Assembly: GCA_013607665.1 (NCBI GenBank)
Contig: VCAX01000004.1
Coordinates: 1-43,636 of the forward strand
DNA: 43,636 nucleotides
DNA from: Campylobacterota bacterium
Lineage (GTDB): Bacteria; Campylobacterota; Campylobacteria; Campylobacterales; Sulfurimonadaceae
Direction: 5' to 3'
Below the pieces are notes generated by a model. It searched no databases, was not told the DNA's origin, and saw only the letters and a program-made list of their open reading frames with translations. The position numbers were made by a program, and so were the translations under genes. This document shows positions 4,849 to 35,983 of this stretch, piece by piece (the first letter of the stretch is position 1; each line of letters begins with the position of its first letter).

Positions 4849-5850
4849 CTATTTTGAGATGTGTAGAGCCATGTCTATAAGACGCATTGAGTATCCCCAC
4901 TCATTATCGTACCATGCCATTACTTTCACCATGTCTCCACCAATGACTTGCGTGAGATCTTCTGCGACAATAGAGCTGTACTCACAACCGACAAAATCCT
5001 GTGAAACACGCATCTCTTTATCAACCAGTAAAAGACCGCTGAGTCTTCCTGCTGCTGCTTCGTTAAATGCAGCATTAACTTCCTCTTTTGTCGTCCCTTT
5101 TTTGACAACGACATTCAAATCAACCATAGAGACATCCGGAGTAGGTACACGAACGGACTGACCGTGAAGTTTTCCCTCAAGTTGTGGCAATACAAGACTG
5201 ATAGCCTTTGCTGCACCTGTCGTTGTTGGAATCATATTGATAGCACCTGCACGGGCACGACGTTTGTCTTTGTTGTGTTTTACATCAAGAATATTTTGAT
5301 CGTTCGTATAGGAGTGAATCGTAGTCATCAGTCCTTTTTCAATGCCAAAAGCATCGTCAAGAACACGCGCAACAGGACCAAGACAGTTTGTTGTACAAGA
5401 AGCATTGGAGACAATTTTTTGTCCATCGTATTTCTCTTCATTGACACCCATTATAAATGTTGGTGTGATTTTATCTTTTGCCGGAGCCGAGAAGAGAACT
5501 TTCTCTACACCATTGTCAATATGAACTTGTGCAGACTCTTGCGTGAGAAATACACCCGTACACTCTAAAACCATATCTGCACCACAGCCTGCAAAGTCCA
5601 AGTTTTTAGGGTCTCTGTCAGAGAATACTCTGATTTTCTCGCCATCTATACTGATGTAATTTTCATCTACCTGCTCTACTTCACTCTGAAATGTTCCGTG
5701 AACTGAATCGTTTTTAAGCAGATAAAGCATCATATCCATGCTAGCCATATCATTGATAGCTACGATCTCAACATCATCTCGCTTTGCTGCAATACGAGCA
5801 ACACAACGACCTATTCTACCAAATCCGTTTATTGCAATTTTGAGTGCCAT
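4849..5850 (-). CDS. gapA: type I glyceraldehyde-3-phosphate dehydrogenase
   Basis: This oxidises glyceraldehyde-3-phosphate to 1,3-bisphosphoglycerate, or runs in reverse during gluconeogenesis. The protein has 333 residues with the Rossmann motif INGFGRIGR (8-16), the active-site [12 protein letters not shown] with nucleophile Cys152, and His179 in [10 protein letters not shown]. It is the first gene of the gapA-pgk-tpiA-fabI run. AGGAT precedes the ATG and a GATAAAAT -10-like box lies upstream in the short divergent gap with nadD. In an autotroph the enzyme would work mainly in the gluconeogenic direction; that is inference. Confidence 0.96.
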
Positions 5851-5897
5851 TCTATATCCTAATAGTAAAAAATTCAGTAATTTTATCCAAAATTAGT

Positions 5898-5903
5898 TAT
5901 AAT
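5898..5903 (+). promoter_or_regulatory. -10 element of nadD, near-leaderless start
   Basis: TATAAT is separated from the nadD ATG by nine bases (TTCGG followed by T/A only, through 5912), so the predicted transcript begins two or three bases before the start codon. No Shine-Dalgarno sequence exists in the interval. Confidence 0.6.
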
Positions 5904-5912
5904 TCGGTTTAA

Positions 5913-6461
5913 ATGAAGACTATAGCACTCTATGGCGGCTCTTTTGACCCGCCACACCTCGGTCATGAGGCAGTTGTAAAGGCTTTAGAAAAGTTAGACT
6001 TTCTAGATGAGATTATCATCATGCCAACTTTTCTCAATCCGTTTAAAGAAAACTTTACTGCCCCTGCAGAGTTGCGACTGCAATGGCTTAGAGAGATTTT
6101 TTCAGATTATAAAAAAGTACATGTAAGTGCTTTTGAAGTAGAAAAAAAGAGAAAAGTACCTGCCATAGAAACGGTAGAGGAGTTGTTACAAAGCTATGAC
6201 AAAATTTATTTTGTCATAGGTGCCGACAATCTTACAAGTTTACAAAAATGGCATAGGTATAGTGAACTTGCAAAACTTGTCACTTTTATAGTAGCGACTC
6301 GTGATGATGTGAAGATACCACAGCATTTTTTTAAGCTCGATGTCGAGGCAGCTATCTCCTCTTCAGAGTTACGTCAAAATATGGATAGAACAAAATTGCC
6401 GCACAAGTGTGCAGAAGAAATTATGAAATATTATACGGAACATAATGAAAAACAGAATTGA
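5913..6461 (+). CDS. nadD: nicotinate-nucleotide adenylyltransferase
   Basis: This adenylates nicotinic acid mononucleotide to deamido-NAD in NAD synthesis. The 182-residue protein opens with YGGSFDPPHLGHE, which carries the nucleotidyltransferase HxGH motif (His15, His18). The second ATP-binding motif appears near residue 150 as AISSSELRQ, the family's ISSTxIR. Length is slightly below the usual 190-210. It starts with almost no leader and overlaps rsfS by 17 bases, so translation of the pair is probably coupled; nadD-rsfS pairing is common in bacteria. Confidence 0.92.
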   Translation: MKTIALYGGSFDPPHLGHEAVVKALEKLDFLDEIIIMPTFLNPFKENFTAPAELRLQWLREIFSDYKKVHVSAFEVEKKRKVPAIETVEELLQSYDKIYFVIGADNLTSLQKWHRYSELAKLVTFIVATRDDVKIPQHFFKLDVEAAISSSELRQNMDRTKLPHKCAEEIMKYYTEHNEKQN

Positions 6462-6765
6462 AAAAATTACCCAAACTTTAGACAAGAACAAAGCAGAAGC
6501 AATAGAGGTCTTTGACCTGCGTGAGAAAAATTACTTTGTAGATTATGCTATCATTGCCTCATCTCTTGGTCAAAAACACACCACTGCTCTTTTAGACCAT
6601 CTTAAAAAAGCACTCAAACCAGAAGAAAACTTTAACAATGTCGATGAAAGTGGTGACTGGGTCGTTGTTGATTTAGGAGACATTCTTATTCATATCATGA
6701 CACCTGAATATAGAGTCAAATATGATATGGAAACATTTCTAAGCGAGCTTGGCACAGAACACTAA
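6445..6765 (+). CDS. rsfS: ribosome silencing factor RsfS (Iojap)
   Basis: This 106-residue protein of the Iojap/DUF143 family binds ribosomal protein L14 and prevents subunit joining when growth slows. Characteristic segments are [20 protein letters not shown], with the FIxATG-like strand altered to IIASSL, and the C-terminal [19 protein letters not shown], followed by YDMETFL. It overlaps the end of nadD by 17 bases and its own last four bases overlap the end of the convergent transglycosylase gene. Confidence 0.9.
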
Positions 6766-8189: not shown

Positions 8190-8213
8190 TCAGCTAGTTT
8201 ACACTAGAGTTGC

Positions 8214-9491: not shown

Positions 9492-9504
9492 TACTGTTTT
9501 ATGT

Positions 9505-10167: not shown

Positions 10168-10213
10168 TTTCTTTTCCTTTGGCTCATTTTAACAAATATC
10201 AACTAATAATAAG

Positions 10214-12361
10214 TTAACTAAATACCAGTGCAATGCGATATGCGATAAAAGCAAGAACATATGCAACGATAGAGGTAAAAATAAAAAGATATACTGCATA
10301 CTTCCAACTGCCTGCCTCTTTTGCAAAAACCGTCGTGGCAGCCAAACACGGCAGATAGGTCATCACTACGACAATAAATGCAACGGCAGAAGCAAAAAGA
10401 ATATGCTTACGGATATTATCGGCTAAAGATTCAGAAGTCTCTGTAACATCACCACCCATGGAGTAAAGCACACCCAAAGTTGAAACCACGACCTCTTTAG
10501 CAGCCAATCCCGTTTGCAGTGCCACATTCATTTTCCAGTCAAAGCCAAGCGGTGCAAAAATCGGCTCTGTCAGTTTTCCAATACGTCCAAGGTAACTCTG
10601 TGCAAGTTCCTCTTCTTCAAGCTTGTTCTCTAACATAATTTTTTGCTGCTCATTTGCAGCTTGTTCTATCTTTGTGGTGTATGTTTTCTCTAGCTCTATA
10701 TTGTGAGGATAATTACTTAAAAACCAGACAAGCATTGCGGCACCGGCAATGAAAGTACCCGCTTTTTTGAGGTATATTATAGTCTGCGTGAGCACTGTAT
10801 GCCAAATAAGTTTGAAAGACGGCAGACGATATTTCGGCATCTCCATAACAAAAGGTTCATCAACGCCTTTAAAGGCTGTCATCTTCAATACTTTTGCCAT
10901 AATCAAACCTAAAATAGCACCACTGACATAGATCGCAAAAAGAACATTCCCTGCCATTGCTTCTCCAAAAAATGCTCCGGCAAAAAGAACATATACAGGC
11001 AGTCTCGCTCCACAGGACATAAAACCGATGATAAAAAGTGTCAGCAATCTGTCTCTGTCATTTTTTAAGATTCTAGCACTCATATAAGCTGGAATAGAAC
11101 ATCCAAAACCAGTTACGAGTGGAATAAAACTCTGCCCATGCAAGCCAAACTTATGGAAGAATCCATCAAGTAAAAAGGCGACCCGACTCATATATCCGGT
11201 TGTCTCAAGCAGAGCGATTCCTATAAATAGAATAATGATATTTGGCGTAAAAAGAACAACCGCACCCACACCGCCAATAATTCCATCCACTACCAAAGAG
11301 CGGACATCATCATTACCAATCGTTGGTGCTATCGTATCATCCAGCCATGTAAAAAAGCCGTCTATCCACTCCATTGGAATATTGCCAACAGTAAAAGTTA
11401 ACTGAAAGAGTCCCCACATAAAAAACAAAAAGATAGGAATACCAAAGAGAGGGTGAATCAAAATATTATCAATCTTCTCTGTTAATGTTTTTTGCTCTTT
11501 GCTCCCCTCTTTATATGTTACAACCTCAGTGACAATCCCACGATTAAATGCTGCATACTCTTCTGCAAAAGCCTCTTTAATATCATCGGTGTCATGATGA
11601 AGCTCAATATGGCGAGAGGCTTCTATGAGAATAGGCTGTAGCTCTGTCCAGAGCGGTTCATCATGAAGCTTTTCATAGGTTTTTTTATTGTTTTTGAGTA
11701 GATTTATCGCAATATTTCTATAAGAGTTCGTTGCTTGAAATTTATGTTTTTGCAAATACGAGGCAATAACATCTATCTCCTCTTCAACCGCTTCACTAAA
11801 GATGAGTTTTGGCTCTTTTTTAGGCTCTTTATAGGTCTGCACTACTGCATTTATAAGATCTTCAATACCTGTCTTTGCCGCAGCAGAGACCTTCACGCAA
11901 GTTACACCAAGCAGCTCTGACATATATGCAGCATCAATTTCAATACCCTCTTTCTCTGCTTCATCGCTCATATTCAGTGCAATGACCATCTTTTTGCTCA
12001 TTGTCAAAAGTTCAGAAGTCAACTGTAAGTTCTTCTCTAAATTGGTTGAATCCACAACATTGATGATAATGTCATAATCCTCTGCACACAGATAGTCATG
12101 CGTTACACGCTCTTCAATCGTATAGTCTGTAAAGGCATAGGTTCCCGGAAGATCAACGACCGTAAAATGATAATCCTTATAATCAAAGAGCACCTCTGTT
12201 TTATCAACCGTAACACCTGAAAAGTTTCCAACATGCAGATGCGCATTGCTCACTGAATTTATCAGCATACTTTTGCCGACATTTGGCTGCCCGACCAAAG
12301 CGACCTTAACATGATTGGCTATAATTGGACAGGCTTTTTGATCTAGTGGTGTACCATTCAT
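10214..12361 (-). CDS. feoB: ferrous iron transport protein B
   Basis: This inner-membrane Fe(II) transporter has 715 residues. The N-terminal G domain shows G1 GQPNVGKS (24-31), G3 DLPGTY and G4 NMSD. Its C-terminal half has two Gate-type blocks with many membrane helices, including LVTGFGCSIPAYMSARIL and a second conserved Cys segment MSCGARLPVYVLFAG. These Cys-containing stretches line the proposed iron path. It overlaps feoA by four bases (ATGA), so the two are translationally coupled. Expression is expected to be Fur-repressed through the site upstream of feoA. Confidence 0.96.
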   Translation of the reverse strand: MNGTPLDQKACPIIANHVKVALVGQPNVGKSMLINSVSNAHLHVGNFSGVTVDKTEVLFDYKDYHFTVVDLPGTYAFTDYTIEERVTHDYLCAEDYDIIINVVDSTNLEKNLQLTSELLTMSKKMVIALNMSDEAEKEGIEIDAAYMSELLGVTCVKVSAAAKTGIEDLINAVVQTYKEPKKEPKLIFSEAVEEEIDVIASYLQKHKFQATNSYRNIAINLLKNNKKTYEKLHDEPLWTELQPILIEASRHIELHHDTDDIKEAFAEEYAAFNRGIVTEVVTYKEGSKEQKTLTEKIDNILIHPLFGIPIFLFFMWGLFQLTFTVGNIPMEWIDGFFTWLDDTIAPTIGNDDVRSLVVDGIIGGVGAVVLFTPNIIILFIGIALLETTGYMSRVAFLLDGFFHKFGLHGQSFIPLVTGFGCSIPAYMSARILKNDRDRLLTLFIIGFMSCGARLPVYVLFAGAFFGEAMAGNVLFAIYVSGAILGLIMAKVLKMTAFKGVDEPFVMEMPKYRLPSFKLIWHTVLTQTIIYLKKAGTFIAGAAMLVWFLSNYPHNIELEKTYTTKIEQAANEQQKIMLENKLEEEELAQSYLGRIGKLTEPIFAPLGFDWKMNVALQTGLAAKEVVVSTLGVLYSMGGDVTETSESLADNIRKHILFASAVAFIVVVMTYLPCLAATTVFAKEAGSWKYAVYLFIFTSIVAYVLAFIAYRIALVFS

Positions 12362-13715: not shown

Positions 13716-13904
13716 CTATTTTTTCATTCTAAATTTACAGCTGCCCACTGTAATTGTCTTGCCGGTTTTTATGGCTTCTTTAATGTATGCAAGCGTGCCC
13801 TCTGCTCCAATTTCCCCTACCTCTTCTGCAATCATTTTAAGCAGATCGCTCTCCTGCGTGAGGGTGTAGAGCTTTTCATAACTGTACTTAGTCTCTATCT
13901 TCAT
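13716..13904 (-). CDS. small conserved-looking protein, function unknown
   Basis: This 62-residue soluble protein starts MKIETKYSYEKLYTL, is predominantly helical and ends in basic residues (GSCKFRMKK). An ATG at 13904 is preferred over two in-frame ATGs upstream because AGAGGA is spaced about six bases before it. It overlaps the end of rmuC by 17 bases and is ten bases before the DoxX gene, so it belongs to that transcript. I do not recognise the family; coding status rests on position, ribosome site and ordinary codon use. Confidence 0.6.
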   Translation of the reverse strand: MKIETKYSYEKLYTLTQESDLLKMIAEEVGEIGAEGTLAYIKEAIKTGKTITVGSCKFRMKK

Positions 13905-15183
13905 CTGCATCCTCTTCACTTTTAACAGGGAGTGATTTTTTCGGTTTTATTCCCAACTCTACAATATTCTGTGCCCTTTTTATAACATTGCCTTTTCCAC
14001 TCTGCAAGCGATTGAAAGCTCTGTCGTAAGAGTCCTGTGCCCGCTGCAGATGTGTTCCTATCTTTTGAAGCTCTTCAACAAAGCCGACAAGTTTTTCAAG
14101 CATTCCTTCTGCCTCTTTGGCTATTTTTTTGGCATGCTCTTCTTGGCGCTGTGTTCGCCATATATGCTCAATGGTTCTGAGTGTAACTAAAAGTGTCGAA
14201 GGTGATACCACCAATATATTGTTCTCATAAGCCCGTTTGAAAAACTCGCCATCTTGTTCAAGTGCGAGTAAAAATGCCCCCTCAATCGGCATAAAAAGAA
14301 GTACAAAATCCAGTGTATTGACCCCTTCGAGTCTTTCATATTTCTTCGCTGAAAGCTCTTTTATATGCGATGATATACTTGCAATATGCTCTTTTAGATA
14401 TTTTGCTTTGAGACTCGGATCCTCTTCATTGACAAAACGCTCATAAGCTGCAAGGGAAACTTTAGAGTCAACAATTATGTCACGCTCTTGCGGCATATGA
14501 ATAACAACATCAGGACGATAGCTTTTGCCCTCTTCGGACTTGAGCGTTGCCTGCAACTCATACTCTACACTCTCACGCAGCCCGGACTGCTCTAAAATAT
14601 TCTCAAGAACCAACTCACCCCAATTTCCCTGCGTTTTGTTTTCACCTTTGAGCGCTTTTGTGAGATTGAGTGCTTCTTGTGCAAGCTGCTCATTCATCGC
14701 TTTGAGATGCTGCAGCTCATTTTTTAAAAGATGTCTCTCTTTTAGTTCCACCTCAAACTGCTCACGCGAGGCTTTTGAAAAGTTGCTTATCTGTTCACGA
14801 AAAGGCTTGAGTAGGAGTTCCAGTTGTTCTTTATTGAGTGAGGAGAACTGTTTTGATTTATCTTCAAATATCTGGTTTGATAGGTTTTTAAACTCGCGTG
14901 AGAGTTCATCTTTGGCATCTTTTAAGAGTTTCAGTTTCTCCTGTGATGATGCAATCTCTTGCTCGTACTTACTCTGCAGTACGGCATTTTCAATGGAGAG
15001 TGCACTGTTTGCATCTTCTAAAACACTGTTTTCATTTTGAGCGGCAACAATTTTCTCCTGCATCTCTTGTGCATATGTTTGCAGCTGTCTGTGTTGTTCT
15101 TTTATCCTAAAATATAAAAAGAGTATTACTAAAAAGAGCAGACTACTCACAGCAGATACTATTATATATATATTCAATTCCAT
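13888..15183 (-). CDS. rmuC: DNA recombination protein RmuC
   Basis: The 431-residue protein has an N-terminal membrane helix (about 4-24) and a long coiled coil (about 28-190). The RmuC nuclease-like domain follows (about 175-390) with QGNWGELVLENILEQSGLRE, YRPDVVIHMP, IIVDSKVSLAAYERF and LLFMPIEGAFLLAL. RmuC limits inversions and rearrangements at short inverted repeats and is relevant to recombination. A -10 TATAAT at 15208-15213 and GAGGAA before the ATG indicate a dedicated promoter. Confidence 0.92.
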   Translation of the reverse strand: MELNIYIIVSAVSSLLFLVILFLYFRIKEQHRQLQTYAQEMQEKIVAAQNENSVLEDANSALSIENAVLQSKYEQEIASSQEKLKLLKDAKDELSREFKNLSNQIFEDKSKQFSSLNKEQLELLLKPFREQISNFSKASREQFEVELKERHLLKNELQHLKAMNEQLAQEALNLTKALKGENKTQGNWGELVLENILEQSGLRESVEYELQATLKSEEGKSYRPDVVIHMPQERDIIVDSKVSLAAYERFVNEEDPSLKAKYLKEHIASISSHIKELSAKKYERLEGVNTLDFVLLFMPIEGAFLLALEQDGEFFKRAYENNILVVSPSTLLVTLRTIEHIWRTQRQEEHAKKIAKEAEGMLEKLVGFVEELQKIGTHLQRAQDSYDRAFNRLQSGKGNVIKRAQNIVELGIKPKKSLPVKSEEDADEDRD

Positions 15184-15455: not shown

Positions 15456-16988
15456 ATGCAAGAAAATGCACAAACAGAAACAACACACAATGAAGAACCG
15501 GTAATCACTTTTGATTCACTTGGTTTAAAACCCGAAATTCTTAAAAGTATTAAATTCGCAGGATTCACTGCTCCCTCTCCTATTCAGACACAGGCTATTC
15601 CTATTGTTCTACAAGGCCGAGATATGGTCGGACAAGCACATACTGGTACAGGAAAAACTGCTGCCTTCTCGCTACCGGCACTTAACAACATGAAACTCAA
15701 TGGTTCTGTTGAACTTTTAGTCATTACGCCAACACGTGAGCTTGCCACACAAGTAAGTGATGAGATCTTCAAATATGGAAGAAATCTCGGTGTAAAAACT
15801 GTAACTGTCTATGGAGGAAGCTCATACAAACGCCAACTTGATCTTATCGGTCGTGGCGCTTCTGTCGTTGTTGCAACACCGGGAAGAATGCTTGATATTC
15901 TTAAAAAGGGAATGCTTAATGACTTCGCACCAAGCATGGTCGTACTTGATGAAGCCGATGAGATGCTTGATATGGGATTTTTGGATGATATCAATGAGAT
16001 ATTTTCTTACCTGCCGACAAACCGTCAGACACTGCTTTTCTCTGCAACAATGCCACAGCCTATCAAAACTTTGGCAAGCAGAATTCTACAAGACCCTGAG
16101 TTTGTCTCCATCACAAAAGGAGAGACAACAAACTCTGACATTGAACAGTTGTACTATGTAATCGACGAGCATGAGCGTGATGATGCGATCATCCGTTTAA
16201 TGGATGCAGAAGAGACAGATAAAACAGTCGTATTTTGTAGAACGAAGTCAGAAGTTGACAGACTCTCAAATGTACTCTCAAATGCCGGTTATCTTGCAAA
16301 TGGTCTCCATGGAGATATGGAACAGCGCCAACGTGAGACAGTGATTAAGGGTTTCAAAAACAACTCTGTTAAAGTACTGGTTGCAACCGATGTTGCAGCA
16401 CGTGGTATTCATGTCAACAATATTTCGCATGTATTTAACTACCATATTCCTTTCGATCCTGAATCTTATGTACATAGAATCGGACGTACAGGACGTGCAG
16501 GAACAAAAGGAAAAGCTATTACATTGCTTACACCCTTAGAGTTCAAAGAGCTACAGCGTATCAAACAAAAAGTCGGTACATCTATGGCACATGCCTTTGT
16601 TCCGAGCAAGAATGACCTGCGTGAGAGTACAGTAGAGAACATTGTAAAAAATATCGAAAATCAAAAAATTTACGATGAAGCGCATAAAGTTCTTGACAGA
16701 CTCAAAGAGGACATTGATGAAGAGACGATTATGTTCAAACTCATCTCAATGATTCTTGACAAGCAAGACATCAAAGGACCAAGCAACATCGGTATTCCTG
16801 CTGATAAACTTGAAGCAATCTTAGCACGTGCAGGTAAAAGAAATGGCTCTCGTGGCCGTGGTGGAAGTAGAGGCCGTGGCGGATACAGAGGAAACAGAAG
16901 CCGTTCTGGAGGATCTAGTCGTGACAGAAACCGCTCAGGTGGTGGATATAGAGGTAACAGAAGCGCATCAAATAGACATAGAGACTAA
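15456..16988 (+). CDS. DEAD-box ATP-dependent RNA helicase
   Basis: This 510-residue helicase unwinds RNA during ribosome assembly or mRNA turnover. All motifs are present: Q motif (FAGFTAPSPIQTQAIP), I AHTGTGKT, Ia PTRELATQ, Ib TPGRMLD, II DEAD, III SAT, then ARGIH and HRIGRTGRAG in the second RecA domain. The C-terminal tail (about 465-510) is an RGG/RGR-rich RNA-binding region. The ATG at 15456 is chosen over the adjacent TTG because AAAGGA lies five bases before it. It resembles DeaD/CsdA or RhlE types; the exact subfamily is not certain. Confidence 0.93.
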   Translation: MQENAQTETTHNEEPVITFDSLGLKPEILKSIKFAGFTAPSPIQTQAIPIVLQGRDMVGQAHTGTGKTAAFSLPALNNMKLNGSVELLVITPTRELATQVSDEIFKYGRNLGVKTVTVYGGSSYKRQLDLIGRGASVVVATPGRMLDILKKGMLNDFAPSMVVLDEADEMLDMGFLDDINEIFSYLPTNRQTLLFSATMPQPIKTLASRILQDPEFVSITKGETTNSDIEQLYYVIDEHERDDAIIRLMDAEETDKTVVFCRTKSEVDRLSNVLSNAGYLANGLHGDMEQRQRETVIKGFKNNSVKVLVATDVAARGIHVNNISHVFNYHIPFDPESYVHRIGRTGRAGTKGKAITLLTPLEFKELQRIKQKVGTSMAHAFVPSKNDLRESTVENIVKNIENQKIYDEAHKVLDRLKEDIDEETIMFKLISMILDKQDIKGPSNIGIPADKLEAILARAGKRNGSRGRGGSRGRGGYRGNRSRSGGSSRDRNRSGGGYRGNRSASNRHRD

Positions 16989-24822: not shown

Positions 24823-25707
24823 TTATTTTCTACTAACTAGAACGCCTCCGAAAATTATAAGCCCAATGCCGGCAAAAGTCATCATATCAGGAAATGTATC
24901 GCCTAAGAGTGTTCCAAATCCGATTGCAAACGGAATGTTAGTGTAGCTAATCACTCCCACAATACTGAGGTTTTTCGCTGAGTAGGCTTTGGTAAGCAGC
25001 CACTGAGAGAGTGTGGAGATAAGAGCCATGAGTCCTATAAGCAGCCAAACACTCATTTTTTCTGGAAGAATAAACTCCGGAAATAAAAATGCCAAAGCCT
25101 GCGGAGCGCTAATGAAAGAAGCAAGAAGAAACAGGAGTGCCGGCATCAGTGTACCAATGCCTACAAAAGAGAGGACAATGACCCGAGAGTCATAAATATC
25201 TTTTATCTTTTTTATTGTCGTGTAGGCTGCTGCTGCAAAGAATCCACCAAGTATGCCAAGGAAATGCGCATAGGAAAACGTAAGTCCAAAGGGTTTTACA
25301 ATGAAGACCACTCCCGCAAAACCAATGAAAAGTGCAAACAGTGTCCGCACTTCCAGACGCTCACGCAGCAGAAAAAAAGCGAGTATAGTCACAAAGAAAG
25401 GGGAAGTTTTATTGAGTGTTATCGCTTCTCCCAAGGGAATAACAGTGATCGTATAGAAAAAAAGTATCATTGCCATAAAACCAAAGAGTCCCCGAGTAAA
25501 AAGCAGATGTATCTTGCCGCCTGTCAATTTTGGCGGGGTATGCTTCAGTGCATATAAAATCAGAAAAACACCAATGAGATTTCTAAAAAAGACGATCTCC
25601 AAAGCGGAAATATCTTCAGAAAGTATCTTGGTAATTGCCCCGTTAAAAGCAGAAATGAGTGCAGAGCCAAGCATAAAAAGAATGCCGCTGTCCGTTTTTT
25701 TCAGCAT
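24823..25707 (-). CDS. EamA/DMT-family transporter
   Basis: The 294-residue protein has ten hydrophobic segments in two EamA repeats (about 8-138 and 148-290). Motifs such as SALISAFNGAITKILSE and VFFRNLIGVFLILYAL in the first repeat and SYTNIPFAIGFG in the second fit drug/metabolite exporters. The substrate cannot be predicted. Its start overlaps the end of the PIF1-like helicase gene by seven bases, so they share a transcript. Confidence 0.88.
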   Translation of the reverse strand: MLKKTDSGILFMLGSALISAFNGAITKILSEDISALEIVFFRNLIGVFLILYALKHTPPKLTGGKIHLLFTRGLFGFMAMILFFYTITVIPLGEAITLNKTSPFFVTILAFFLLRERLEVRTLFALFIGFAGVVFIVKPFGLTFSYAHFLGILGGFFAAAAYTTIKKIKDIYDSRVIVLSFVGIGTLMPALLFLLASFISAPQALAFLFPEFILPEKMSVWLLIGLMALISTLSQWLLTKAYSAKNLSIVGVISYTNIPFAIGFGTLLGDTFPDMMTFAGIGLIIFGGVLVSRK

Positions 25708-26969
25708 TTGCTGCCTTTTTTTACAAACTCCATCGCCTTTGGATTGACAAAGGCAAGCTCATACCACTGTCTGTTGGGAGCAATGAGTGTCAGTCGTTTT
25801 GGATTGCAGGCTCGTGAGAGTGCCACATAAAACTGCGAAGAGGCAAAGATCTCCTGTGTATCAATAATGAGATCTTCAATGCTCATCCCCTGTGATTTGT
25901 GAATGGTAATGGCAAAAGCAAGTTTTATGGGGTATTGATAGACGCGAAAAATCTCCTCTTCTTGGAGCTCTTTTTTCCCCTCTACTATCTTTTCCTTCCA
26001 AAGCGACTTACTTTGTGCCACCTGTTCAAGCTTTACAATTTTGCCATCACTCTTTTGCACATAGACATACTCAGCATCAATATTGACGATCTCACCCCGC
26101 TCTCCATTAAAATAGTTCCATGCATTGCGTGAGAAGAGTACCGGTGCACCAATTTTAAGCTCCAACTCTCGCTCTATACGGGCATCCTCCATAAAACGCT
26201 CTATCTCTTTGTCACTCACGCTTTTACTCTGTTTGATGATCTGTGCCTCTTTTATAACTAATTCGTTCTCTATATGCGCAAGTTGCTCCCTGTTGTGGCG
26301 TGCGGCGGAGTTGTTCTTTGCAAACAAAAAGGTAAATTGACTAAAATCACTCGGCAGTAGTTTTATAAAGCGATTGAGTGCATTATGCACTGCTTCATCT
26401 ATCCTGCCAAAGCGAACTTGGTGCAGCAGTTCGATAAACTCTTTATCATCCGTTCGGTGTACATGCCTCAACTCTATCGTCTCAAATGCAAAACTTTGCC
26501 AAGCCGCAGATTCAAAAGCATAATGTACTACAGCAGACCTACACACAACAGGAGGCAGCTGCAAAAAATCACCCACAAGCAAAAAAACACCTTTATATTC
26601 CGCTTGCTCAAGCCGCAGTGCTATCATTTCAAAGAGTTTATCGCTTACCATCGATATCTCATCGATGACAATCAAATCCATAGCAGCAATAAGTTTTTTT
26701 ATCTTCTTTTTTATCCCTAACTTGCCGTTTCGCTCAAGTTCATTGATATCCGCTGCAATGCCAAGGTCAAAAAAGCTGTGCAGTGTCTGTCCTGCTATAA
26801 GCGTTGCAGCCATACCTGTTGAAGCAAGCTTGGCTGCTTTTTTTGCTTCTGCTTCATATGCCTCGATAACAGCACGGGTAGTAGTGGTCTTGCCAACACC
26901 TGCACCACCGGTTAAAAAAACATTGAAGCCGTTTTGTAATTTTTCCAAAAGAAAATCTGTAGAATTCAT
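25701..26969 (-). CDS. PIF1-like superfamily 1B DNA helicase
   Basis: This 422-residue helicase has Walker A GGAGVGKTTTT (20-30), motif Ia (STGMAATLIAGQTLHSFF), Walker B IDEISMVS, motif III GDFLQLPPV, and the C-terminal motifs AFAITIHKSQGMSIEDLIID and FYVALSRAC. The order is that of PIF1/RecD-type 5-prime-to-3-prime helicases. Its likely role is replication or recombination. The ATG has no Shine-Dalgarno sequence, and the -10 TATAGT lies 11 bases before it, so the mRNA leader is about five bases. Confidence 0.9.
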   Translation of the reverse strand: MNSTDFLLEKLQNGFNVFLTGGAGVGKTTTTRAVIEAYEAEAKKAAKLASTGMAATLIAGQTLHSFFDLGIAADINELERNGKLGIKKKIKKLIAAMDLIVIDEISMVSDKLFEMIALRLEQAEYKGVFLLVGDFLQLPPVVCRSAVVHYAFESAAWQSFAFETIELRHVHRTDDKEFIELLHQVRFGRIDEAVHNALNRFIKLLPSDFSQFTFLFAKNNSAARHNREQLAHIENELVIKEAQIIKQSKSVSDKEIERFMEDARIERELELKIGAPVLFSRNAWNYFNGERGEIVNIDAEYVYVQKSDGKIVKLEQVAQSKSLWKEKIVEGKKELQEEEIFRVYQYPIKLAFAITIHKSQGMSIEDLIIDTQEIFASSQFYVALSRACNPKRLTLIAPNRQWYELAFVNPKAMEFVKKGSKC

Positions 26970-28294: not shown

Positions 28295-29425
28295 CGCAAA
28301 AGTATAGACTCGCCAAATGGAGTTGACGCTATTTTTGGCGTAACCCACTTCACGCTATAGAGTGGCGCTTCTTTTGGAAAGATGCCTTCTAAGTCTGTAA
28401 AATAGAGCAGTAGTTTTACACTGTCGAGCTCTTTTTCAATGAACTCAAAAACAGAACGAAAATCAGTTCCACCCACACCCTTTACCGTAACATCAAGGGC
28501 TTCCCCGCTCACAAAGCTTACGTGAGAATGGATTCTTCTCATCACAAACAAGAATGTCTATAATATAATTTTGTACCTGCTGCATCAAAAAGTTCACTTC
28601 ACTAAGAAATGCACTCAACAAAACTTCATCAACAGAACCTGAAGAGTCTATAGCAATGACCAAGCGAAATGTTTGTGACTGACTTGAAGGCAAATAGACA
28701 CCTTCATACAGAAGTTTCTTAGCGGGCGGCATCATCACATAATCATCATAAAAGTACTGTTCAAGCGCCTCACGCAATTCACTCCGCCAGTCCACTTTTG
28801 AAAAACCTTCCAGAGTAAAAAAACGCTCAATAGCCAGAGGTGCTTCACCATTTTGCACTTGTGCTTCTAAAAGTGAAATGGCCTCCTCAGCCAAAAGCTG
28901 CTCCTGGAGTAACTCCTCTTGCAGCTGCTCACTTGATGGCTGCTCTTTTGGCTCAGATTTTTCATTCTGCTCTACATCATCGGCACTATCCGCTTCATAC
29001 TCCAGATCTTCATCCTCACGCAGTATGTCATCTTTGAGCGCAGCATAGATCTCCTCTGCATACATACCGGAAAATCGTTTCCTGTACTGTGCACCATAAG
29101 GCATTTGCAGGCCATTTGCCAAAAGCATATCGTTAATGGCGATATCCGTCGCCATCTGCCAGAGCCAGCCACTTCTGTTGTTCTTACGATTTTCATGCGA
29201 GAGTACTTGATGCATCGCGCCGTTTGCTAGTATGAACTCTATCTCCTGCGTCTCTAACTCACTGAGATACACCTCACGGTACTCCAGCTTCTTTCCATCA
29301 CTCTTAAAGCTCTCTATATCATCATTGACAACAAGTTCCAATTTGGAGGCCAAAGTTCCAAAAAAATAGGGATACTCCACTAAAAGTTTCGCTTTTGCCT
29401 GAGAGATCTTTTCTTCTGTTGTCAT
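28291..29425 (-). pseudogene. DUF2201/VWA-like putative metallopeptidase, broken by a one-base frameshift
   Basis: The first frame (from 29425) has the DUF2201 N-terminal region with GAMHQVLSHENR (a possible metal site), WQMATDIAIND, an acidic linker (about 150-200), and the VWA-like start VIAIDSSGSVDEVLL, ending shortly after DILVCDEK. The other frame continues IHSHVSFVSGEALDVTVKG and GGTDFRSVFEFIE to 28291. Deleting one base near 28531-28541 joins them into a 377-residue protein of normal form. Such proteins often occur with a MoxR-type AAA ATPase, which is absent here. It may be a genuine pseudogene or a sequencing error. Confidence 0.8.
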
Positions 29426-29432
29426 AGAGTAC

Positions 29433-29768
29433 TTACGTTATGCCAAAAGGTATGCAAAAAACAAATGCCATATCCAAAGCCGCTTTTGCACTAGAGCCTA
29501 TGCTTGTCTGATGCAGCAGCTCTAGAGCAATAGCCGGCTCTTTGAGCATAAAATGCTCTTTTACTAAAATAATATTCTCTTTGATGCTCTCTAGTGTCTC
29601 CCCTGTTACAGCTTTGGCTGCAGGTGCCTCTCCATAAGCAAAACTTCCATCATCACATAGCACCTTCACGCGAATAAATGCCACATCTTTGACCTCACGC
29701 AAGGCAGTAATAAAAGGTGTTTTAAGTGCGATTTTCTCTTGCGTGAGAGAAATATTTTGTATTTTCAT
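29433..29768 (-). pseudogene. truncated dipeptide epimerase (enolase superfamily), N-terminal domain only
   Basis: The 111-residue product matches the N-terminal capping domain of L-Ala-D/L-Glu epimerases: FITALREVKDVAFIRVKV, FAYGEAPAAKAVTGETLES and SSAKAALDMAF. It then ends within eight unrelated residues. The catalytic barrel of about 240 residues, with its Lys and metal ligands, is missing, and the DUF2201 gene begins eight bases after the stop. A deletion is therefore likely. It overlaps the upstream membrane protein gene by four bases, which suggests it was once a normal operon member. Confidence 0.8.
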
Positions 29769-30157
29769 GAAAATGCCATATAGATAAAAAACGGGTAGAG
29801 TAAAATACCTATATAAGGCATATAAGGGCCGATGGGTGTAAAAAGTGAGACTGTAAACTCTTCACTGAGCTCTTTGTCGATAAAGACCTTTTTAATAAGC
29901 AGGATTTTTGTAATAATGTCGGCTGATTTAAAAAGCAGCAGTGTCACGGCATAGGGATTATAGTTCGTTTCAAAAACAAACCAGACAGCAAAATAAAAAG
30001 TCGGATGCATAATCAAAAACAGAAATATACTTTTATGGTACTGCTCATACATGCGTGCAAGCATCCCCATTATCGTCTCTGCCTTTTGCCACTGCACCTC
30101 ATAAAACTCCAACACTATGTATAAAACAATATAAATAAAAATCGTATTTTCTAACAT
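29765..30157 (-). CDS. small integral membrane protein, function unknown
   Basis: The 130-residue protein has hydrophobic segments near 4-20, 42-62, 68-85 and 108-128, so three or four membrane helices. Aromatic-rich sequence (FEVQWQKAETI-like EFYEVQWQKAETI, PTFYFAVWFVFE) and a charged loop IKKVFIDKELSEE are seen. I do not recognise the family. It lies seven bases after the DUF819 gene and overlaps the epimerase remnant by four bases, so is part of that operon. Confidence 0.75.
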   Translation of the reverse strand: MLENTIFIYIVLYIVLEFYEVQWQKAETIMGMLARMYEQYHKSIFLFLIMHPTFYFAVWFVFETNYNPYAVTLLLFKSADIITKILLIKKVFIDKELSEEFTVSLFTPIGPYMPYIGILLYPFFIYMAFS

Positions 30158-30164
30158 TGAGTAC

Positions 30165-31295
30165 CTATCCTGCCATTTTCACTAAAATCTCGCCTACAAA
30201 AAGCCCGCCGAAAGTCCCTATAAGATAGCCCATGATTGCCATAAGTACACCGACACTGACAAGTTTTTTATCGTATACCGCTGCCAAGATCGGTGCTGAG
30301 GCGACACCGCCGATATTTGCCAGTGAAGCCACAGCAATGCTAAAGAGATCAAGCTTAAAAAGTTTTGCACCAACTGCCATGAACGCTGCGTGAAGCAGTA
30401 AAATGACAAAACCCGCTACCACATAAATACCAAGTCCGCTGAAATTTTCTATGACCGCTTTTGAGCCAATGAGCGCTATGAGAATATAGAGCATCGTCGT
30501 TGCCACTTCATTGGAACCGTTTAGCTCACGCAGTCGTGTAAAAGAACCAAACACCCCTAGCAGTGTGGCAATGATGACAATGCTTGTCGTTTTATTTAAG
30601 ATCACTACATAGTTCGCTAAAAGCTGCGAAAGCAGTGATGCTTCCAGTGCTAAAGCAATAAGCAGCCAGTAGCGTTTTGCTCCCATTGCACAGGCACAGC
30701 CTATCTCACTCAAGTAGGCAAGATTTTGCTCGCTTTTTGTAAAACGGTTGAAAATCTTTGCAAAAGGGACTAAAAAAAGCAGCAACATAACCCACAGCGT
30801 ATAGTTGACGCTATCGACTACAAGTGCATAGGCAAAGGCATCTTCGCTCACACCAAGTGCGCTTCCGACTGCCACCATATTCGCCGTTCTGCCCATCCAG
30901 CTGCCTGCCAATGCACCAAAAGCCGCTGCCATATCTTTGTTGAAATGAAAGAGCAGTGCCACAACTATAAAAGAAAATGCTATCGAACTCACGGCAAAAA
31001 TATACGCAAGCAGCAGTTTTTTTCCCAGTTTTAAAAAATGTCGAAAATCAATCTCCAAGAGCATCAAAAAGAGCATAGCAGGCAGTAAGTTCGCTTTTGT
31101 CTGGCTATAAACATTGTTGATTGCTTCATTATAATGAAAAACACCCAAAGATGCCAGCAACATCATAAAAGCATAGATCATCACTACCGCAGGAAGGTAC
31201 TCAAAAACACGCATCTTCGTTCGTGTTGCCAAGAGATGAAAAAATGTCACACTCAAAGCGATGACAAAAAGATAGCCCAAAGGAGTAGTTATCAA
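30165..31295 (-). CDS. DUF819 family membrane protein
   Basis: This 376-residue protein has about ten membrane segments. It shows the family's pattern of AALAGSWMGRTANMVAVGSALG in the middle and ASLANIGGVASAPILAAVYDKKLVSVGVLMAIMGYLIG-like segments near the C-terminus. DUF819 proteins are uncharacterised but sit in the wider family of carboxylate or sodium-dependent transporters and are often found beside dipeptide epimerases, as here. The start is TTG with AAAGG ten bases upstream; this is the least certain part. It is divergent from the DUF4139 gene. Confidence 0.85.
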   Translation of the reverse strand: MITTPLGYLFVIALSVTFFHLLATRTKMRVFEYLPAVVMIYAFMMLLASLGVFHYNEAINNVYSQTKANLLPAMLFLMLLEIDFRHFLKLGKKLLLAYIFAVSSIAFSFIVVALLFHFNKDMAAAFGALAGSWMGRTANMVAVGSALGVSEDAFAYALVVDSVNYTLWVMLLLFLVPFAKIFNRFTKSEQNLAYLSEIGCACAMGAKRYWLLIALALEASLLSQLLANYVVILNKTTSIVIIATLLGVFGSFTRLRELNGSNEVATTMLYILIALIGSKAVIENFSGLGIYVVAGFVILLLHAAFMAVGAKLFKLDLFSIAVASLANIGGVASAPILAAVYDKKLVSVGVLMAIMGYLIGTFGGLFVGEILVKMAG

Positions 31296-31350
31296 CTTCT
31301 TGTTGCCTTTTATTTTTTTTACAAGTGTATCATATTTTCAAAGGATTTTT

Positions 31351-32490
31351 ATGAAACGAATTATTTTACTCTCAAGCCTTGTCCTCACGCAGACTCTTTT
31401 TGCAACAACGTTGACAATTTATAACTCAAATATTGCACTCATTCAAGAATCACAAACATTTTCTATCAAACAAAACAACAGTGATTTGATACTGGAGAAT
31501 TTACCAGACACACTGCTTGACAACTCTGTAGATGTTTCACTCCCTGATTCTGCTACACTTGAGTGGCAAACATACAGACCAAAAAGATATAAACAACATG
31601 AAAAAGAGACAATAAACAGCAGACTAACATTGCATGTAAAGAGCACAAAAGAGCTCAAAGCAGATCTCGATATCTCTTACCTTGCAAAAAATATCAGCTT
31701 TACAACAGACTATGTACTCAACATAGATAAAAACAGAGCTCAGTTTAGTGCATATGTAGATATTCAAAACAACTCAGGAAAAGATTTTAAAAATGCCTCC
31801 ATCAACCTTATAGCAGGCACTCTCAACAGAGCCTATAACCATCCCCAACCTGTTATGTACAGGGCAATGGTAGCAGATGAAGCCCTGCCGAGTCACAAAG
31901 CGGTTGCCGGGTATCATAAATATTCCCTGCCTATGAAACTTGATCTCAATAGTTATGAAAAACAACGAGTCAAATTCTTTGATACAAAGGAAATTGCTCT
32001 TACAAGCAGCTACATTGCAACTATAAACAATCCACTCTACCTTATGGGAGAGCGTTCAAGTAGTGTAAAGAGAGAGCTGCATCTCGAAGCACTCAAGCAT
32101 GAACTACCTGCAGGGCTTGTACGTATCTATACAACAGATAAAAAAGAGAAACTGCTCCTAGGAGAGGCAGGCATTGTAAATAGTCCTAAAAACAGCCCGC
32201 TTACCCTAAGTGTCGGTCAGGATTTTGACACTAAAGTCACGCAAAAAATTCTCTCACGCAACGATACAAATACGCAGTTCGATGCAACGGTACTCTATAG
32301 CATCATCAACAACTCTAATGAAGACAAAATTGTGACACTTCACATCCCTTTTAACAAAAAAAGCGGCTCACACATCAACTCGAAACTCAAATATACTTAT
32401 ACTAAGGGAAATTTGGTTACATTTACACTCAAAGTCAAAGCAAACTCCCAACGGAGTTTTGATGTCAATTTTAAAAGTTCAAGAAGATAA
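31351..32490 (+). CDS. DUF4139 domain secreted protein
   Basis: The 379-residue protein starts with a signal peptide (KRIILLSSLVLTQTLFA, cleavage near residue 18). The mature part begins TTLTIYNSNIALIQESQTF and contains the pattern LILENLPDTLLDNSVDV typical of DUF4139 proteins, followed by beta-rich sequence to a C-terminal NSQRSFDVNF strand. The ATG at 31351 with AAAGGA upstream is chosen; an in-frame extension of 17 codons lacks a ribosome site. It is probably periplasmic or outer-membrane associated. The function is unknown in the family. Confidence 0.85.
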   Translation: MKRIILLSSLVLTQTLFATTLTIYNSNIALIQESQTFSIKQNNSDLILENLPDTLLDNSVDVSLPDSATLEWQTYRPKRYKQHEKETINSRLTLHVKSTKELKADLDISYLAKNISFTTDYVLNIDKNRAQFSAYVDIQNNSGKDFKNASINLIAGTLNRAYNHPQPVMYRAMVADEALPSHKAVAGYHKYSLPMKLDLNSYEKQRVKFFDTKEIALTSSYIATINNPLYLMGERSSSVKRELHLEALKHELPAGLVRIYTTDKKEKLLLGEAGIVNSPKNSPLTLSVGQDFDTKVTQKILSRNDTNTQFDATVLYSIINNSNEDKIVTLHIPFNKKSGSHINSKLKYTYTKGNLVTFTLKVKANSQRSFDVNFKSSRR

Positions 32491-32505
32491 AGGGAAAAAT
32501 GCTGC

Positions 32506-33249: not shown

Positions 33250-34608
33250 AAAAAACACAAAAAAGACAAAGGCTATAGCACCGCTTATAAGGGCATAAGG
33301 AAGCTGCGTTTTTACATGCTCTATCACTTCACAATCCGATGCCAGCGATGAGATGATGGTTGTATCGGAGATGGGTGAACAGTGATCCCCAAAAACGCCG
33401 CCACTGATAACTGCACCCATGGCAAGTGCCACATTCGCATCGAGTCCCACCGCCATCGGCACCGCTATTGGAATCATGATCGAAAATGTTCCCCAGCTTG
33501 TTCCCGTTGAAAAAGAGATAATACTGCTAAGTAAAAATATAACACCTGCCAAAAGATAAACAGAGAGGTTATCATTTGCCAAAGAAGCGAGATAGAGTCC
33601 TGTTTTTAGCTCACTCGTTACCTTGCCAATAGCAAAGGCAAAGAACAAAATCATCGCAATACCAAAAAGTTTTTTTGCCCCTCTTAAAGCTGACATCATA
33701 TAGCTTTTAGGGCTCATATTGCCTCTTGCAACATAGAGCAGATACATCACCGCAAGTGTTGTGAGCATCGTATAGAAAATAGAGCTTGAGCCACTCCCTT
33801 TGAGTATATTTCCATCACCTGTAATGGCTAAAAACACAAAAACCGAAGCTATCATAACGGCTATTGGCAGCAGCATATAGTGCATTGGTGCTTTGCGTGA
33901 GAGATGCAGCTGTGTATGTACCTTTGAAGCTTTTGCGTGTTTCATTGGCCCTAGCTCAATGTTGAACCATACTGCCAAAAAAGTTACAACTGAAGCCGAG
34001 ATGGAGTAAAAATTAAAAAAAACACTCTTTACAAGCCAGTCAACACTTTCACCGCGAATAAGTCCAGAGTCAATCTGCGTAGCGATGAGTCCTAAAAGCA
34101 AAGCGCCCCAGCCATTGAGCACCAAAAGCGAACTTACAGGTGCCGATGTAGAGTCACAAACATAAGCAAGCTTTGCGTGAGGCACCCCCTCTCTGTCACA
34201 CAGCGATCGCCCGACAGCACCCGCTATGAGTGAAGTAATGGAAGATTCAATAAAAATAACAACACCGATGATATAGCTCACCATCAAAGCCGAACGCTGG
34301 GATTTTACAAGTTTTGATTTCTCTGTCATGTATGCAACAAAGCCGTTGATGCCGCCACTCTTTTCAAGCAGTTCCATTACGCTGCCAACCAAAATGGCAA
34401 AGGCAAGTGTTTTGAGTATCCACCCTTCACTCAGCAGAGAGACAAAGAGTGCCAGCGTTTCATCTAAACTTGCAAAAAAAGAGAAGTCTTGAAGAATAAA
34501 AACACCTAGAACAATACCGCCAAACAAAGAGAGCAAAACATTACGAGAGTATAGGGCAAGTACAATTGCCGCTAGTGACGGCAAAAGAGAGAGGGCTGAG
34601 AGTTCTAT
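33238..34608 (-). CDS. NhaC-family Na+/H+ antiporter, with an ATA start likely
   Basis: This inner-membrane carrier of about 456 residues has 11-12 hydrophobic segments. The family signatures are FIESSITSLIAGAVGR, AYVCDSTSAPVSSL, SFSTGTSWGTFSIMIPIA and GVFGDHCSPISDTTIISS. An in-frame TTG at 34584 would start within the conserved N-terminus (MPSLAAIVLALYS) and has no ribosome site. A Shine-Dalgarno AGGAGA at 34614-34619 lies five bases before an in-frame ATA (34606-34608) giving IELSALSLLPSLAAI. The ATA start is thus suggested. It lies nine bases after the acetyltransferase stop. The substrate may be Na+/H+ or organic cations. Confidence 0.85.
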   Translation of the reverse strand: MELSALSLLPSLAAIVLALYSRNVLLSLFGGIVLGVFILQDFSFFASLDETLALFVSLLSEGWILKTLAFAILVGSVMELLEKSGGINGFVAYMTEKSKLVKSQRSALMVSYIIGVVIFIESSITSLIAGAVGRSLCDREGVPHAKLAYVCDSTSAPVSSLLVLNGWGALLLGLIATQIDSGLIRGESVDWLVKSVFFNFYSISASVVTFLAVWFNIELGPMKHAKASKVHTQLHLSRKAPMHYMLLPIAVMIASVFVFLAITGDGNILKGSGSSSIFYTMLTTLAVMYLLYVARGNMSPKSYMMSALRGAKKLFGIAMILFFAFAIGKVTSELKTGLYLASLANDNLSVYLLAGVIFLLSSIISFSTGTSWGTFSIMIPIAVPMAVGLDANVALAMGAVISGGVFGDHCSPISDTTIISSLASDCEVIEHVKTQLPYALISGAIAFVFFVFFSAF

Positions 34609-34617
34609 GAGACTCTC

Positions 34618-35241
34618 CTAAAATGTAAATGAGAGGAGTTTTAGCCCATTGCGTCCAAAAGTCTCTTTGTATGCTTCACACTCTTTTTCATCCACAACGA
34701 CAAAGCCAAGTTTTTCATATAACAATTCCGCTTCAAGCGAGCCGATCTCGATGATGGTCTGTGCAACACTATAGCCTTTTAATCGCGCTGTAAGTAGAGA
34801 TTTCTGCATGAGTGCTTTTAAAACACCGACATCAATGAAGCCTTCAAGCTCTTCCATAAAATCAAACATTAATGCCGTTCTGCTTACATCTAAATGACAA
34901 GAATTTACTACCTCAAGTGTAGCTGTAATGTCATCCCTGCAACCGACCTCTTCAAGTGCCTTCATAAAAACTTCATTTGTCGCTTTTCTTGGTTCATACG
35001 AGCAGAGTGATCCTACCTTTTGATCATCCATCTCTGCAATGAAAAAGTTTTTATAATGGCAATGGCTTTTTGCTTCTGTCTGTGCAAGCTTTTGGAGTTT
35101 CTCTAAAAGCTCTGTATCATTCTTTGTTTCAAATAGTAAATCGAAAAGCCCGACTTTTTTTCCAGCTCGTGAGCTTTGCAACATCATTTGTACTAAAAAA
35201 GGCGTGTCTTCAACCTTTGCTTGTCTTATTGTAATACTCAT
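34618..35241 (-). CDS. GNAT-family acetyltransferase
   Basis: The 207-residue protein has GNAT-type form: ITIRQAKVEDTPFLVQM at the N-terminus, FFIAEMDDQKVGSLCSYE as the beta-4/5 core, and ELLYEKLGFVVVDEKECEAY near the C-terminus. The acetyl-CoA loop is not a clear RxxGxG, with YSVAQTIIEIGSLEAE in its place. The acceptor is unknown. Its TAG stop overlaps the AGGAG ribosome site of the downstream NhaC gene, so the two are translationally linked. It diverges from the L,D-transpeptidase gene. Confidence 0.8.
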   Translation of the reverse strand: MSITIRQAKVEDTPFLVQMMLQSSRAGKKVGLFDLLFETKNDTELLEKLQKLAQTEAKSHCHYKNFFIAEMDDQKVGSLCSYEPRKATNEVFMKALEEVGCRDDITATLEVVNSCHLDVSRTALMFDFMEELEGFIDVGVLKALMQKSLLTARLKGYSVAQTIIEIGSLEAELLYEKLGFVVVDEKECEAYKETFGRNGLKLLSFTF

Positions 35242-35305
35242 AATATTTTGCCTTTTTGCCCAATTCTCTAAGGTCAGTCATATAATAGTAATAGTACCAT
35301 ACTTT

Positions 35306-35983
35306 ATGATAAAAAGTTTCTTAATTATACTAAGTTTTTCAACATTGTTATTTGCTTCTGAGCAAATTGTTCTAGTTGTAGCAGATGATTTTAACGCATC
35401 TCACGCAAAACTGGCGTGTTATGAAGGTAAAAAGCAGATCTGCAAAGATATCGATGTCAATCTTGGGAAAAATGGTTTGGGATGGGGAATCGGCATGAAG
35501 AATATTCCTCACGCAGCAAATGAACCCTACAAACAGGAGGGCGACAAAAAAGCACCCGCCGGTATCTTTAAACTCAGCGATGCTTTTGGCTATGCAATAA
35601 GAGTCAATACAAAACTTCCTTATCTCCACGCAACAAAAGAGACAATCTGTGTAGATGATAGCAACTCCCCCTTTTACAACCAGATCATTCAGGCCAATGG
35701 AGATGAAAAGAGTTTTGAACATATGCGTCGCAAAGATGAACAATACAGACTAGGCATTGTTGTCGCACACAATCCTCACGCAGAGGCACAAAAAGGTTCG
35801 TGTATCTTTATGCACATTCAAAAAGCACCCCATGCGCCGACGGTAGGATGTACCTCAATGGCTAAAAAAGATTTACGAAAGATTATAGATTGGCTAGATA
35901 AAAAGAAAAATCCTATTTTGATTCAGATTCCTAAAAAATATATAAAAGAGGTAGAAAAGCTCTATCCTCAGATAAAACAGTAA
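35306..35983 (+). CDS. L,D-transpeptidase (YkuD) family protein
   Basis: The 225-residue protein has a signal peptide (IKSFLIILSFSTLLFAS) and a YkuD-type domain with VVADDFNASHAKLACYEG, GIFKLSDAFGYA and the catalytic region FMHIQKAPHAPTVGCTSM carrying the His and nucleophile Cys. Such enzymes form or edit peptidoglycan crosslinks in the periplasm. ATG at 35306 is chosen since TATAAT at 35281-35286 predicts an mRNA start near 35293, excluding the upstream in-frame extension of 34 codons. No Shine-Dalgarno is seen in the short leader. Three copies of the octamer CTCACGCA lie in this one gene. Confidence 0.85.
   Translation: MIKSFLIILSFSTLLFASEQIVLVVADDFNASHAKLACYEGKKQICKDIDVNLGKNGLGWGIGMKNIPHAANEPYKQEGDKKAPAGIFKLSDAFGYAIRVNTKLPYLHATKETICVDDSNSPFYNQIIQANGDEKSFEHMRRKDEQYRLGIVVAHNPHAEAQKGSCIFMHIQKAPHAPTVGCTSMAKKDLRKIIDWLDKKKNPILIQIPKKYIKEVEKLYPQIKQ

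Follow-up and report, generated by a model that had tools for sequence, protein, structure and literature searches.

Here we analyse a 43,636-nucleotide stretch of DNA from a Campylobacterota bacterium (hereafter referred to as the window; positions 1 to 43,636 of contig VCAX01000004.1, assembly GCA_013607665.1), in which the octamer TGCGTGAG is repeated on both strands. Our recount agrees with the 23 exact copies listed in an earlier note on this DNA, 11 on the forward and 12 on the reverse strand, spanning positions 4949 to 35782 (Table 1). The window has a G+C content of 39.5%, and in a third-order Markov model TGCGTGAG is its most over-represented octamer (23 copies versus 1.32 expected). 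Dinucleotide shuffles of the window (n = 100) gave a mean of 1.16 copies and a maximum of 5, slightly above the chance expectation of less than one that the note had assumed. Open reading frames (ORFs) of at least 100 amino acids (aa) hold 22 of the copies, which are read in several frames as the eight peptides LRE, MRE, LTQ, PHA, SHA, FSRN, LSRN and LSRK, and synonymous-codon shuffling of 43 window ORFs (n = 500) left a mean of 1.61 copies (maximum 7) versus the 22 real ones. The TGCGTGAG-free stretch at the right of the window, from 35782 to 43636, carries housekeeping genes, as judged from translations without a family search. The MetK protein encoded in the window matches Sulfurimonas records at 89–91% and one metagenome-assembled genome (MAG) called Helicobacteraceae at 91%. 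These matches bear out a Campylobacterota host, and the window genome (G000) probably belongs to the genus Sulfurimonas.

Table 1 Exact copies of TGCGTGAG in the window
Feature	Position	Strand	Comment
Copy 1	4949..4956	+	exact match
Copy 2	5540..5547	+	exact match
Copy 3	6518..6525	+	exact match
Copy 4	10785..10792	+	exact match
Copy 5	13855..13862	+	exact match; sole copy lying outside ORFs of 100 aa or more
Copy 6	14572..14579	-	exact match
Copy 7	16618..16625	+	exact match
Copy 8	17625..17632	-	exact match
Copy 9	21792..21799	+	exact match
Copy 10	25360..25367	-	exact match
Copy 11	26126..26133	+	exact match
Copy 12	28769..28776	-	exact match
Copy 13	29015..29022	-	exact match
Copy 14	29694..29701	-	exact match
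Copy 15	29740..29747	+	exact match; inverted relative to copy 14, 46 bases apart, within an ORF
Copy 16	30525..30532	-	exact match
Copy 17	31384..31391	-	exact match
Copy 18	32253..32260	-	exact match
Copy 19	33894..33901	+	exact match
Copy 20	34174..34181	+	exact match
Copy 21	35400..35407	-	exact match
Copy 22	35508..35515	-	exact match
Copy 23	35775..35782	-	exact match

The whole G000 assembly (1.53 Mb in 141 contigs, 88% complete) contains 688 copies of TGCGTGAG, 331 forward and 357 reverse, whereas the same word read backwards occurs 23 times (11 and 12). The strand balance seen in the window thus extends to the genome, and the density, one copy per 2.2 kb, is close to that of known uptake sequences. 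We analysed the sites further in a 388-kb sample of G000 (25% of the genome, window included), with an ORF threshold of 80 aa. The sample contains 185 copies, whereas a Markov model predicts 13.0 (observed-to-expected ratio (O/E) of 14.3), so that the word far exceeds chance expectation beyond the window as well. ORFs contain 180 of the 185 sites, 78 in the sense and 102 in the antisense orientation. The antisense copies are distributed over all three frames (41, 31 and 30), and 75 of the 78 sense copies use the frame ?TG-CGT-GAG, in line with a stop codon in another frame and a required cysteine in the third. The 179 coding copies have 32 different peptide readings, with Leu-Arg-Glu accounting for 64, and synonymous-codon shuffling of 376 ORFs (n = 100) left 13.8 copies (s.d. 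3.5, maximum 23) in place of the 179. As the shuffled counts fall far below the real one, selection on TGCGTGAG acts at the level of DNA and not protein, which the earlier note had argued from the different codon frames of the window copies. Of the two outcomes that the note named as refuting its proposal, neither holds: the word exceeds both its reversed control in the genome and the Markov expectation in the sample, and peptide motifs do not account for it.

The sites conform to the consensus YTGCGTGAG(R): C or T precedes the octamer in 166 of the 185 sampled sites, as the note had proposed, and A or G follows it in 131, with almost no consensus more than two bases outside the word. Among single-change variants, clear enrichment is confined to positions 1, 7 and 8 (T1>C, 8.1-fold; T1>G, 3.6-fold; A7>G, 4.7-fold; G8>A, 4.0-fold; G8>C, 4.6-fold), and the 15 changes within the GCGTG core reach only 0.4- to 2.2-fold. 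TGCGTGAG is therefore a non-palindromic word whose ends tolerate change and whose core does not. Noncoding DNA contains fewer sites per kb than coding DNA (0.20 versus 0.50), mostly because of its lower G+C content; corrected for composition, the O/E values are 10.1 (four sites) and 16.1, respectively. The sites are randomly spaced (coefficient of variation (CV) of 1.01) with longest gaps no longer than chance gives, and we rejected the idea that TGCGTGAG deserts mark foreign DNA, as the gap lengths fit this random spacing. Successive fifths of genes carry 26, 38, 36, 45 and 34 sites (n = 179), indicating no clear bias towards gene ends. Two inverted pairs less than 80 bases apart occur in the sample, both inside genes. 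Site density is 0.588 per kb in ORFs that have an ortholog in the other samples and 0.442 per kb in those that do not, a difference that we leave uninterpreted because the latter set includes core genes that merely lie outside the samples.

We also compared the strands of neighbouring sites in five genomes that use TGCGTGAG. Adjacent sites lie on the same strand in 122 of 253 pairs and on different strands in 131, whereas adjacent genes share a strand in 362 of 485 cases, and the ORF copies comprise 129 sense and 150 antisense sites. An orientation bias of 75%, like that of the recombination signal Chi in Escherichia coli, predicts a concordance of 0.625, far above that observed (p ~3e-6). TGCGTGAG thus lacks local polarity. 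The earlier note had taken strand balance to favour uptake over a polar signal, while allowing for skew along a long replichore; its view on polarity agrees with the neighbour test, which is the relevant one, but balance is in itself a weak argument, as a polar signal counted over an entire chromosome would balance too.

Comparison with related genomes, proposed in the same note, revealed that the word is restricted to part of the genus. Seven of 60 genus genomes, G000 included, carry 621–962 copies (G000, 688; G007, 767; G019, 621; G021, 948; G026, 785; G062, 962; G088, 757; the last two genomes are 100% complete), whereas the other 53 carry at most 75, in numbers similar to those of their controls. 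Beyond the genus, 365 genomes of the class were counted, and none exceeds the 283 copies of G218, for which the reversed word gives 111. A 14-kb locus of Sulfurimonas sp. NS-812 (L022) contains six copies.

Several of the relatives use other words. We searched samples of 36 genus genomes (8–388 kb each; G033, with N throughout, was left out) for over-represented octamers, using a cut of z ≥ 10 for a strong word that was chosen after the table had been seen. Such an octamer is present in 19 of the 36 samples, and the remaining 17, of 15–83 kb, have none. G020 and G004 were left off the word list, as their octamers sit inside longer repeats, which leaves 17 genomes. TGCGTGAG is the strong word in G000, G007, G019, G021 and G026; CTGCGTTT in G010, G013 and G015; CTGCATTT in G003; T(G/C)GCGTTT in G009 and G018; words containing GCATGT in G034 and G035; and the palindrome TACATGTA or its extensions in G006, G011, G031 and G032. 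GC(G/A)T is common to several of these words. Whole-genome counts in 37 genomes (reversed-word control in parentheses) are, for CTGCGTTT, 1822 (116) in G015, 1367 (42) in G013, 409 (71) in G009, 406 (22) in G022, and lower in G010 (361 (8)), G028 (214 (7)) and G003 (146 (10)); for TGGCGTTT, 636 (24) in G009, 316 (14) in G018, 254 (91) in G015 and 194 (11) in G028; and for GCATGTGG, 477 (24) in G035 and 137 (62) in G034. Among named records, L024 and L028 each have 13 copies of CTGCGTTT in 21 kb, and the 18 kb of L077 contain 13 copies of GCATGTGG. We placed the word labels on a comEC tree of 31 genomes, which lacks G000 (longest piece 248 aa, cut 250) and also G003, G004, G014, G032 and G033 (no full comEC sequence). 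The labels are clustered, requiring 13 changes compared with a mean of 18.5 after shuffling, and 0 of 200 shuffles reached so low a value. A single origin is possible, with weak support (43/65), for the four TGCGTGAG genomes in this tree, and the CTGCGTTT group, including G022 and G028, requires three changes.

To what extent individual sites persist was examined by aligning TGCGTGAG sites by codons between orthologs in five user genomes and L022, in directed comparisons that count each pair both ways. Between users, 74 of 132 directed alignments preserve the octamer exactly, compared with 16.3% for background octamers of equal G+C content, whereas it is identical in none of 209 alignments with genomes using other words (138, 37 and 34 for groups B, C and E). 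When each site is counted once, 34 of 47 persist in one or more of the other users, and 0 of 74, 0 of 31 and 0 of 28 do so in the three other-word groups. With G000 as the query, 13 of 18 alignments with four users retain the octamer, and six of seven distinct sites are kept in at least one of them; against other genus members, 2 of 193 are kept (78 distinct sites). Within-group conservation of the other words involves few sites for TGGCGTTT (2 of 7) and GCATGTGG (0 of 5), too few for a test. Collectively, these data show that TGCGTGAG is a genuine DNA word, specific to a lineage, spread over the whole genome and under maintenance, and that several congeners have words of their own.

We propose, with a probability of about 0.6, that TGCGTGAG (YTGCGTGAGR, core GCGTG) functions as a DNA uptake sequence that has dialects within the genus. 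We favour uptake because the words differ within the genus, because TGCGTGAG has no local polarity, and because conservation of its sites is limited to genomes using the same word. In this mechanism, TGCGTGAG would serve as a non-polar, genome-wide mark and would be recognized by a DNA-binding pilin at the cell surface that belongs to the type IV pilus/ComEC transformation machinery, giving DNA from the cell's own lineage preference in uptake; repeated uptake and recombination would then keep the word abundant. The words TGCGTGAG, CTGCGTTT, TGGCGTTT, GCATGTGG and possibly others of the different Sulfurimonas lineages would be dialects, as in Neisseriaceae, with CTGCGTTT, TGGCGTTT and GCATGTGG serving the same function as TGCGTGAG. 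More tentatively, and at somewhat less than even odds, Campylobacterota may have evolved uptake-sequence languages independently of Neisseriaceae and Pasteurellaceae, with words that arise, change and vanish within one genus and thereby sort close free-living relatives into separate gene-exchange groups.

Competence-type genes are present in most genomes of the genus. Among 37 genus genomes, DprA was matched in 33 (twice in G000), a ComEC domain in 34 and N-methyl pilins in 36 (three in G000). By coordinates, pilin genes lie approximately 8 kb from comEC in many genomes, and one pilin gene directly precedes a priA-matching gene at all 11 loci read, with PriA confirmed by family search at two of them. 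In Campylobacter jejuni, the competence gene cj0683 is described as preceding priA (PMC10046745), which by analogy hints that the place before priA may belong to DNA uptake. The priA-adjacent pilin is conserved in its N-terminal half and varies in its C-terminal half, as a receptor might, and its NCBIfam and PDB matches mostly cover the pilin N-terminal region. Those of the 10 other genomes are 46–63% identical to the G000 pilin.

Several observations weigh against the uptake interpretation. The G000 sample shows neither intergenic enrichment of TGCGTGAG nor inverted pairs at terminators. DprA was unmatched in G003, G013, G022 and G032 of the 37 genomes, and G013 nevertheless has 1367 copies of CTGCGTTT; either the link is not a simple one, or DprA falls into gaps of this assembly (91% complete). 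Genomes lacking a strong word have ComEC, DprA and pilins about as often, so these genes do not explain which genomes have such a word. The comEC gene of G000 itself is split into three pieces that occupy two frames and include one internal TGA (L193, 7242–8495), for which an assembly error is as likely as real loss, because some ORFs of the window also look shifted or cut; judged from translations, these include PAS/GGDEF and enolase-superfamily-like genes (window 23363–24778 and 29433–29768). Cj0683 is reported as unique to Campylobacter (PMC10046745), so that its parallel with the priA-adjacent pilin is one of position only. Conservation of CTGCGTTT within its group is weaker than that of TGCGTGAG (18 of 70 versus a 15.2% background). 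Moreover, the priA-adjacent pilin does not sort cleanly by word among the 29 genomes with a match: the closest to the G000 pilin is that of the non-user G030 (65%, full length), followed by those of G026 (user), G022 (non-user), G088 and G007 (users), G028 (non-user) and G062 (user), while the match in the user G021 is only 48% and that in the user G019 is a piece at a contig end. We therefore claim no receptor.

Two observations on the same pilin concern CTGCGTTT. The priA-adjacent pilins of the CTGCGTTT users G013 (L175) and G015 (L159), which are distant on the comEC tree, have similar C-terminal halves, and G022 (L235), placed there as the sister of G013, differs from it in this pilin and has 406 copies of CTGCGTTT versus 1367. 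The likeness between G013 and G015 is suggestive of a receptor–word link, but the other genomes do not fit.

The earlier note had offered uptake and a Chi-like role as candidates, and these are the right pair: uptake is favoured, and Chi is kept in consideration by an AddAB-like gene pair in G000. As a Chi-type signal, TGCGTGAG would make an AddAB helicase-nuclease at a double-strand break stop degrading DNA and promote recombination instead. The two overlapping genes, of 919 and 781 aa, encode a RecB-like helicase above the NCBIfam cut-off and a PD-(D/E)XK protein whose AddB match is below the curated cut-off, and make an AddAB-type Chi possible. In searches of 18 of the 37 genus genomes, PF12705 was found in all 18, in frames of 644–801 aa in 17 and only in a 917-aa frame in G021, whereas RecC was found in none, which led us to reject a RecBCD-type Chi. 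TGCGTGAG also resembles Chi in being an over-represented, octamer-sized word located mostly in coding DNA, and its core is similar to the Lactococcus Chi GCGCGTG (Table 3 of PMC5959072); exact GCGCGTG, however, occurs 25 times in the 388-kb sample, compared with 185 for TGCGTGAG. The neighbour-strand concordance argues against a biased Chi but is not decisive, because whole-genome strand counts reported in the same source (PMC5959072) indicate a Pseudomonas syringae Chi without orientation bias. The nuclease occurs equally in genomes with TGCGTGAG, with another word or with none, yet the word changes within the genus, and we consider a Chi role unlikely. To our knowledge, TGCGTGAG would be the first Chi to change within a genus.

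A similarly low probability attaches to a lineage-specific methyltransferase site that would act as a self mark, in methylation-dependent uptake or another process, or to an iterated word of unknown role like the cyanobacterial HIP1. C. jejuni, of the same phylum, is reported to distinguish its own DNA from foreign DNA by a short motif methylated by CtsM (PMC8468864), whereas the feature here is an unusually abundant octamer. The lineage-specific, strand-neutral and mostly coding distribution of TGCGTGAG fits a methyl mark, but restriction–modification sites are usually avoided, not enriched. HIP1 is likewise an octamer iterated in coding DNA with an unproven role, but it is a palindrome, whereas TGCGTGAG is not its own reverse complement and is limited to part of one genus. 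Over-representation and octameric form would also suit a polar segregation signal (KOPS-like, for FtsK) or another orientation guide, a reading that we reject because only 122 of 253 neighbours share a strand and to which we accord almost no probability. We give equally little weight to explanations by codon usage, by peptide motifs or by a mobile repeat and its copies. Leu-Arg-Glu, read from 64 of the 179 coding copies, might point to a peptide motif, but the antisense copies are spread over three frames and synonymous shuffling leaves 13.8 copies of 179, which refutes an origin in codon usage or peptide motifs; copies of a mobile element are excluded because the flanks have almost no consensus beyond two bases.

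Read as an uptake sequence, TGCGTGAG can be compared with those of two families of mostly host-associated bacteria, in which uptake sequences have been well studied. Its length and density are similar to those of the Pasteurellaceae uptake signal sequence (USS), and the sequences are unrelated. Like the USS as described (PMC2346458, PMC12616744), it has one orientation that is somewhat commoner in genes (102 antisense and 78 sense in the G000 sample), but it lacks A/T tracts beside the core and a clear gene-end bias. The DNA uptake sequences (DUS) of Neisseriaceae are described as short non-palindromic words present in hundreds to thousands of copies, with a conserved core and variable edges, in dialects that differ among related species, some genomes of the family having none (PMC3630211); all of these features recur here. 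Unlike the DUS, TGCGTGAG belongs to another phylum, has neither intergenic enrichment nor inverted terminator pairs, and has no identified ComP-type receptor in our data, and the Sulfurimonas words differ within one genus without all sharing one core. In the literature, we found no earlier description of an uptake sequence in Campylobacterota, Epsilonproteobacteria or Sulfurimonas, in a search that left most subscription journals and preprints uncovered, and the matches listed for the octamer itself look unrelated by title. Papers found on Sulfurimonas together with competence and DNA uptake, judged by title and the opening of the abstract, do not concern such a word either. If the uptake interpretation is correct, these words would constitute a third, independent set of uptake sequences, this one from a free-living genus whose members use one or another of several words or, apparently, none. 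They would provide replicate natural experiments on the origin of uptake sequences, contrasting receptor-driven accumulation with selection for kin DNA, and would show how fast receptor and word change together.

Further repeats were observed beside these words. Several Sulfurimonas samples (those of G006, G011, G016, G031, G032 and G004) and the loci L023, L033 and L037 show strong over-representation of the palindrome TACATGTA, with the extensions CTACATGTAG or TTACATGTAA; this palindrome may be a separate system, for example a HIP1-like one. The G015 sample (L159, L160 and L210–L212) contains two unrelated strong words, with 63 copies of CTGCGTTT and 36 of GCTCATGT in 91 kb, and that of G020 (L101, L157 and L158) contains a longer dispersed repeat around TTACGGGGCGAAT, with 15 copies in 41 kb. 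Outside the genus, AGATTCTA is very dense in Helicobacter loci (L065, L069 and L073; also L067, L068 and L074). Judged by title, none of the literature matches listed for AGATTCTA with Helicobacter addresses this repeat. It numbers 34 copies in 13.7 kb of H. bilis, 30 in 21 kb of H. cinaedi and 37 in 21 kb of a sheep-colon Helicobacteraceae MAG, and lies on both strands, mainly within ORFs and with little flanking consensus.

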